Shown: positions 15,488 through 16,783 of the stretch, piece after piece
How positions within the stretch are numbered: the first letter of the stretch is position 1
Layout of the letters: every line of letters starts with the position of its first letter
Assembly (NCBI RefSeq): GCF_007748195.1
Contig: NZ_CP037920.1
Span: 5,919,800-5,983,799 of the forward strand
Length of the DNA: 64,000 nucleotides
Direction: 5' to 3'
Origin: Gimesia aquarii
GTDB taxonomy: Bacteria > Planctomycetota > Planctomycetia > Planctomycetales > Planctomycetaceae
Notes under the pieces: generated by a model
Seen by the model: the letters and a program-made list of their open reading frames with translations, nothing else
Database searches by the model: none
What the model was told of the DNA's origin: nothing
Program-made: the position numbers and the translations under genes

Positions 15488-16783
15488 GTGCGGATTGCCT
15501 ATTTAGATTGTTCTACTGGAATCAGTGGTGATATGACGTTGGCGGCACTGGTTGACGCTGGTGTGAATGCAGATCAGATTTGTGCCGGTATTGATTCGCT
15601 TGGACTGCCTGATGTGAAGCTGACTTTTTCTTCCACTATGAAAGGTGGCTTTCATGCAACGTCAGTTCAAATTGATCATCCGGAGCAACACGCTCATCGC
15701 CACTTAAGCGATATCGTTAAAATCCTGAAACAATCCAATCAGCTCACTCCGAAGCAATTTGAAATTTCACTCTCGCTGTTCACAGCAATTGCATCAGCGG
15801 AGGCCAAGGTTCACGGTTCTACAATCGATCAAGTTCATTTCCATGAAGTCGGTGCTATCGATTCGATAGTTGACATTGTAGGAGTGGCAATTGGTTTCGA
15901 CCTGTTGAGTGTCGAGCAAGTGATTTCAAGTCCTGTTCCCACAGGTTTCGGACAGATAAAAATCGATCACGGAATTTGTACCGTTCCTGCGCCAGGCACA
16001 GCTGAACTCTTGAAAGGGATTCCTCTTGCAGACATTTCTATTGAAGCAGAGCTAACAACCCCCACAGGTGCAGCCATTATTTCGACACTTGTTGATCGCT
16101 TTTCAATGATCCCCCCCATGACGATAGAAGAAATCGGATACGGAGCAGGTACGAAAACATTTCCCGAAAGAGCGAATCTCTTGAGAATCTTTGTCGGAGA
16201 ACTCGCTACAAAAAGTAATACTGACAACGTTACGCTACTGGAAACCAATCTCGATGACGTTTCGGGAGAAATTATAGGCTATACAAAACAAAAACTATTG
16301 GAATCGGGGGCGCTAGATGTCTACTCCACTTCGATTCAGATGAAAAAAGACCGACCTGCCACCCTGCTCAGTGTCATTTGCAAACCGGAATCATCGGATA
16401 AACTCGAATCGATTCTTTTTCAGGAAACAGAAACACTGGGGATTCGTCGGCATCAATTGCAACGTTCGATTCGGCCTCGCCAACGACACACTGTGAAAAC
16501 AGCTTGGGGAAACGTCGAAGGCAAAATCTCTCTGACACAACATCAGCAATCACAATTTACTCCAGAATATGAATCGTGTGCACTGATTGCAGTAGAGCAA
16601 GGAGTTTCATTGCGAACCATTTATCGTGCGGCTGAAGCAGCTTTTATGATTGAAAGCAAATCAAGTAACAGCCCCAATCTTAACGATGCAAATGTGCCCC
16701 ACGACCACGACCACGACCACGACCACGACCACGACCACGACCACGACCACGACCACGACCACGACCACGACCACGACCACTAA
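15488..16783 (+). CDS. larC: LarC nickel-pincer cofactor metal-insertion protein with His-Asp tail
   Basis: A 431-residue LarC (DUF111) protein, which uses CTP to insert nickel into the pyridinium-bisthiocarboxylate pincer cofactor used by lactate racemase LarA and relatives. The N-terminus MRIAYLDCSTGISGDMTLAA and the HFHEVGAIDSIVDIVG segment are family signatures. The C-terminal DUF111 part (LLETNLDDVSGEIIGY, QMKKDRPATLLSV) is fused in one frame, unlike the programmed frameshift of Lactobacillus. The last 27 residues are an uninterrupted alternation of His and Asp (14 His, 13 Asp), a probable nickel-binding tail as in HypB- or UreE-type proteins. The start is GTG at 15488. larA, larB and larE are not visible here, so the enzyme served must be encoded elsewhere. 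Confidence 0.9.
   Translation: MRIAYLDCSTGISGDMTLAALVDAGVNADQICAGIDSLGLPDVKLTFSSTMKGGFHATSVQIDHPEQHAHRHLSDIVKILKQSNQLTPKQFEISLSLFTAIASAEAKVHGSTIDQVHFHEVGAIDSIVDIVGVAIGFDLLSVEQVISSPVPTGFGQIKIDHGICTVPAPGTAELLKGIPLADISIEAELTTPTGAAIISTLVDRFSMIPPMTIEEIGYGAGTKTFPERANLLRIFVGELATKSNTDNVTLLETNLDDVSGEIIGYTKQKLLESGALDVYSTSIQMKKDRPATLLSVICKPESSDKLESILFQETETLGIRRHQLQRSIRPRQRHTVKTAWGNVEGKISLTQHQQSQFTPEYESCALIAVEQGVSLRTIYRAAEAAFMIESKSSNSPNLNDANVPHDHDHDHDHDHDHDHDHDHDHDHDHDH
16700..16780 (+). repeat. Perfect hexanucleotide tandem repeat (CACGAC, 13.5 copies)
   Basis: An 81-base stretch made only of CACGAC units, ending in CAC directly before the TAA of larC. It codes for the His-Asp tail. Every His is CAC and every Asp GAC, so the repeat is perfect at DNA level and prone to slippage in units of two residues without loss of frame. 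Confidence 0.97.

Follow-up and report, generated by a model that had tools for sequence, protein, structure and literature searches.

A perfect hexanucleotide repeat encodes an alternating His-Asp tail, a candidate nickel store, on LarC of Gimesia aquarii

The larC gene of Gimesia aquarii ends in a perfect hexanucleotide repeat, which adds a tail of strictly alternating histidine and aspartate residues to the C-terminus of the LarC protein. By analogy with other nickel maturation proteins, we consider it fairly probable that this tail is a disordered, multi-site metal-binding store and donor of nickel, whose His and Asp residues are kept by selection while the length of the repeat changes. 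The gene is located in the analyzed window, a stretch of 64,000 nucleotides (contig NZ_CP037920.1, positions 5,919,800–5,983,799), and the genome of this strain is a single contig of 7.40 Mb. The following features were assigned, with coordinates given within the window:

15488..16783, plus strand: larC coding sequence with a GTG start and a TAA stop (431 aa); LarC1 and LarC2 are fused in a single frame, and PF01969 covers residues 4–379
15671..15694, plus strand: short turn IDHPEQHA, residues 62–69 (alignment of 211 LarCs; a strand-helix turn in the model)
15698..16195, plus strand: LarC1 domain (TIGR00299), residues 71–236, profile match
16229..16582, plus strand: LarC2 domain (NF052512), residues 248–365, profile match and fold match to 6bwq/6bwo
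16664..16699, plus strand: linker after the last helix, approximately residues 393–404, with low model confidence and poor conservation
16700..16780, plus strand: His-Asp tail of 14 CAC and 13 GAC codons, a perfect hexanucleotide repeat, predicted to be disordered
16781..16783, plus strand: stop codon TAA

Judging by sequence and predicted fold, the gene encodes LarC, the enzyme that inserts nickel during nickel-pincer nucleotide synthesis, and the assignment made in the preliminary description was thereby confirmed. The protein scored 465 bits against PF01969 (curated cut-off 22.1), a family whose old Pfam name we take to be DUF111, 205 bits against the LarC1 profile TIGR00299 (cut-off 90) and 148 bits against the LarC2 profile NF052512 (cut-off 50). 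A sequence search of solved structures matched the full-length LarC 12bi (E 6e-84) and also the LarC2 structure 6bwo. Modeling using AlphaFold gave a mean pLDDT of 91, mostly above 90 in the core, and the top Foldseek match of the model was LarC2 6bwq (E 3e-16, TMt 0.90); the full-length entries 12bi–12bl were absent from the Foldseek list, though matched by sequence. The invariant LarC residues are kept in the window protein (alignment of 64). Thus, the window protein shares LarC1 and LarC2, the invariant residues and the LarC2 fold with the LarCs of L. plantarum and M. thermoacetica (PDB 6bwo, 6bwq, 12bi), and larB and larE are present in its genome. However, the solved LarCs do not have a His-Asp C-terminal tail as aligned, while the window LarC has one. 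In addition, the window larC is a single frame; a programmed frameshift is used by some genes of the DUF111 cluster, according to the accessible part of PMC3711429.

Profile searches revealed larA (PF09861), larB and larE over the cut-off in all 17 Gimesia genomes, with three copies of larA in the window's genome. In that genome, larA, larB and larE are located far from larC, which rules out a larC operon. The genus copies of larC have a prenyltransferase-like gene on one side and a coiled-coil gene on the other, and the flanking genes are identical in kind across 16 genus loci, as far as the contigs extend. HypB was found over the cut-off in 15 of the 17 genus genomes, and no His-rich stretch was detected in the HypB of the window's genome; urease alpha was over the cut-off in none of the 17. 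Elsewhere in the window (18762–20357, minus strand), a gene of the beta-RFAP synthase family adjoins a DUF447 gene, a pair that we take to suggest tetrahydromethanopterin-type C1 metabolism.

The tail is encoded by (CAC GAC) repeated 13 times, then CAC and then TAA, with no other codon. Tandem Repeats Finder likewise reported a single perfect array at 16699–16780 (period 6, 13.7 copies, 100% matches); both analyses agree with the 14 His and 13 Asp residues in strict alternation, coded by CAC and GAC only, that had been described before. The tail has a pLDDT of about 43–52 in the AlphaFold model, i.e., it is predicted to be disordered. In the rest of the gene (the first 385 codons), CAC accounts for 5 of 12 His codons and GAC for 7 of 21 Asp codons. 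Codon bias fails to explain the tail because the gene body prefers the synonymous alternatives over CAC and GAC, and the probability of drawing all 27 tail codons independently at gene-body codon usage is about 3e-12. In the whole 7.4 Mb genome, (CACGAC)4 was found in larC only, and the relaxed pattern (CAYGAY)3 was found in larC and at one other site, a lipoprotein-like gene. This second site belongs to a 177-residue frame (L254, G000:C1:2204267) that ends in HAHDHDHDH. The very low odds and the uniqueness of (CACGAC)4 rule out chance or codon bias as the source of the repeat. Among the 16 genus genomes having (CACGAC)4, there is one array per genome, always at larC; in G010 and G015 the array is split over contig ends, and the second piece there was not traced to larC. 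An assembly artefact was also ruled out, since the repeat is present in 16 genus assemblies, several of them single-contig. The reversed-repeat control pattern was counted five times on the reverse strand of G005, which therefore contains an unrelated hexanucleotide repeat of the CAGCAC type. Two overlapping imperfect tandem repeats with periods of 30 and 21 (unit TTTCTTCGCAGCTGC...) were noted at window positions 32953–33049 and are possibly another coding repeat.

LarC inserts nickel with CTP, and the L. plantarum enzyme is thought to be single-turnover (accessible part of PMC11796402). In the mechanism that we propose for G. aquarii, this CTP-dependent insertion of nickel into the pyridinium precursor would complete the nickel-pincer nucleotide cofactor of LarA-type racemases, and for the tail we infer metal binding, transfer to the active site and a benefit at low nickel. 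The last 27 residues of LarC would concentrate nickel, and probably other divalent ions too, beside the enzyme. As a local tethered store and donor, the tail would pass nickel to the active site, and a scarcity of free nickel would therefore not hold up LarC in each reaction; the benefit would come under low-nickel conditions. Selection would hold the tail rich in His and Asp, while gain and loss of the six-base unit would keep rewriting its length and codon pattern.

A nickel reservoir is a reasonable reading of the tail, based on analogy with HypB and UreE and on conservation of the tail across the family. The tail is a dense, His-rich and predicted-disordered appendage on a nickel maturation protein. 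The proteins to which it can be compared are built differently: the His-rich part of HypB is N-terminal and belongs to a GTPase unrelated to LarC, the fold of UreE is likewise unrelated to LarC, and the Hpn-like protein of Helicobacter pylori is a stand-alone protein. According to the accessible part of PMC7055735, HypB of Bradyrhizobium and Rhizobium is, like LarC here, a nickel maturation factor with a His-rich appendage, which was proposed to be a store; values of 9 Ni for 24 His and 4 Ni for 17 His are given there for HypB, its His-rich tails bind Zn, Co and Cu as well, and a strict alternating repeat is not among the features described in that part of the text. UreE of Klebsiella aerogenes, a nickel chaperone, likewise has a C-terminal His tail that adds bound nickel (10 His in 15 residues; about 2 Ni per monomer for 10 His; same part of PMC7055735). 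Scaling from these HypB and UreE figures, a tail with 14 His might hold roughly 3–5 Ni per monomer. In the same source, removal of the His tail from Klebsiella UreE decreased the nickel bound per dimer from six to two and left urease activity similar; the LarC tail may therefore be dispensable for activity, and by this analogy its contribution to activity may be confined to low nickel or be absent altogether. The Hpn-like protein, which also binds nickel and is His-rich, was compared between two strains in the accessible part of PMC8704837; the main difference between their N-terminal parts is the Gln count, and it is not an enzyme tail.

In many LarCs of other phyla, a His-rich loop is located directly before the HRHL motif as an insert of about 11–69 residues. 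In the alignment of 211 LarCs, the site of this loop corresponds to the short turn at residues 62–69 of the window protein. Thus, the LarCs with a loop (Bacillota, Cyanobacteria, Bacteroidota and others sampled) are the same enzyme with a His-rich insert at a position other than that of the tail. With a threshold of at least 5 His, 205 distinct LarCs included 101 with a tail, 33 with a loop, 71 with neither and none with both. Tail and loop were not found together at thresholds of 4, 6, 8 or 10 His either, and they co-occurred in two LarCs at a threshold of 3 His. The loop was present in 33 of the 61 LarCs outside the planctomycete sample and in none of the 144 on the planctomycete side, and none of the 61 had a tail. 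These counts represent an uneven sample of life because resemblance to the window protein decided which loci were taken: the 80 loci of the broad sample are the best 80 of 125 confirmed ones, and relatives of the query are thus over-represented. On a FastTree phylogeny of the LarC core, made with the loop and tail columns left out, the tail required at least 6 changes and the loop at least 10, on a tree with weak branches. Given these weak branches, the query-leaning sample and the split along phyla, the mutual exclusion of tail and loop is suggestive. It is tempting, though rather doubtful, to see in the LarC family an interchangeable His-rich nickel module that was gained several times, in the loop or at the C-terminus and never in both, the planctomycete tail being a fast-evolving in-frame repeat whose length would set nickel capacity and whose slippage would tune cofactor supply to the nickel of each lineage. 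Since 71 of the 205 LarCs have neither part, LarC probably works without a His-rich region.

The LarCs without any His-rich part also bear on a second reading, in which the tail buffers metals generally or serves as a safety store for nickel, zinc and cobalt; it would happen to be sited on LarC and guard the cell or the enzyme from excess, with no direct part in nickel insertion. This is a possible but clearly less probable explanation. It is consistent with the commonness of such LarCs and, in the accessible part of PMC7055735, with the binding of several metals by HypB tails and the similar urease activity after removal of the UreE tail. A composition search also gave weak matches, far below the cut-off, to His stretches in the zinc protein ZrgA and in a nickel/cobalt efflux transporter. 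However, (CACGAC)4 occurs in the window's genome at larC only, and HypB, another nickel factor, is without such a stretch; moreover, the recurrence of His-rich parts at two positions of LarC points to a LarC-linked use.

To evaluate the spread of the tail, larC was searched for in related genomes and was found in 16 of 17 Gimesia genomes (the one miss is a 76% complete genome), 140 of the 150 genomes from the family and 91 of the 98 from the class. In the class sample, the genus g70 (G168, G176, G179, G194, G218, G223) showed no LarC match in 6 of 6 genomes despite 96–99% completeness, while most others have one. The loci read comprised 79 of the 129 non-genus family matches and 40 of the 67 non-family class matches; L139 (masked stretch in frame), L141, L162, L193, L198 and L204 (identical to retained rows over the first 385 residues) and the duplicates L168 (of L024) and L017–L019 (of L003, L006, L007) were left out. 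All 16 genus LarCs have a His-Asp repeat tail. In the family outside the genus, at least 5 His were found in the tail of 77 of the 78 assessable LarCs among the 79 loci read, mostly as His/Asp, and these tail-bearing loci span 54 of 55 genera, counted by genus codes. The sole assessed exception, L185, showed no trace of a tail in any downstream frame and has evidently lost it; the next frame there opens shortly after the larC stop. In other families of the class, a tail is present in 6 of the 40 assessed LarCs; most of these tails are rich in His but contain less Asp. Five loci of another family of the class (L219, L221, L228, L232, L237) have His-rich tails with His, Glu, Thr or Gly, which are perhaps separate gains.

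The family tails differ in motif (HDHD, HDHS, HDHM, HDHHG, HDHDCG), and 71 of them contain 44% His and 28% Asp on both synonymous codons (CAC 834, CAT 489, GAC 475, GAT 477). These data bear on a metal-free role of the tail, for example in LarC oligomer assembly, response to pH or binding of a partner such as LarE or LarA. Disordered charged tails are generally capable of such roles. However, the tail motif is not conserved, and His accompanied by Asp (in relatives by Ser, Gly, Met or Cys) is a choice of residues more in keeping with metal ligands than with a fixed binding motif; a role without metal is therefore improbable.

Within the genus, the length of the tail varies strongly. The 14 complete tails contain 9, 11, 12, 14 (four times), 16, 18, 19, 22, 23, 24 and 28 His, counted after residue 392 (for L012–L016 this includes one His upstream of the array); L009 and L007 were excluded from the length counts because the draft assemblies G010 and G015 break inside the repeat. 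Tail lengths are equal in 6 of 91 genus pairs, and four genes with 95–97% identity in core DNA have 18, 23, 24 and 28 His. With a unit of six bases, the reading frame is preserved in the 16 genus copies (two of them truncated at contig ends), and on/off phase variation by frameshift was thus ruled out. Genus arrays start with CACGAC units, and CACGAT or CATGAC units form a closing block in several of them. Along 20 arrays, which are related and not independent, 29 codon switches were observed versus a shuffled mean of 111, the lowest of 2000 shuffles being 89; L012 was cut at its Gln in this test, and all its 18 His were counted in the length test. Such blocks of synonymous units look as expected for whole-unit duplication. 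The change of copy number without a frameshift that the preliminary description had predicted is therefore supported between species, by the range of 9–28 His, the divergent lengths of near-identical genes and the blocks of synonymous units. No such change separates the window gene from its closest relative (94.7% nucleotide identity), both having 14 His; the comparison covers one genome per species. The pattern named in the preliminary description as speaking against it, a fixed length combined with synonymous changes, did not turn up: the genus shows both synonymous changes and differing lengths.

The interior of the genus arrays contains one amino-acid change, the Gln in L012, versus several synonymous unit types. 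The amino acids of the tail persist although the underlying DNA is rewritten, and therefore selection probably acts on the protein. A neutral by-product of a runaway hexanucleotide repeat would suit the fast change of length, the block duplication of units and the tolerance of the C-terminus, but this reading is disfavoured and very improbable given the His/Asp richness of 77 of 78 assessed family members with varied motifs and both synonymous codons, the single interior amino-acid change and a repeat that is invariably located in larC and read in the His-Asp frame.

Both LarC and His-rich appendages for nickel are already known; searches of open-access literature brought up no mention of a conserved, length-variable His-Asp repeat on LarC or of the alternation of loop and tail. 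The delivery of nickel to the nickel-pincer cofactor is poorly known, and these natural LarCs, which differ chiefly in how many His-Asp units they carry (9 to 28 His), amount to a ready-made titration that may tell whether the tail is a store, a donor or neither. Among bacteria, the larC tail also provides a clear example of a coding repeat whose length changes quickly while its amino acids are preserved.
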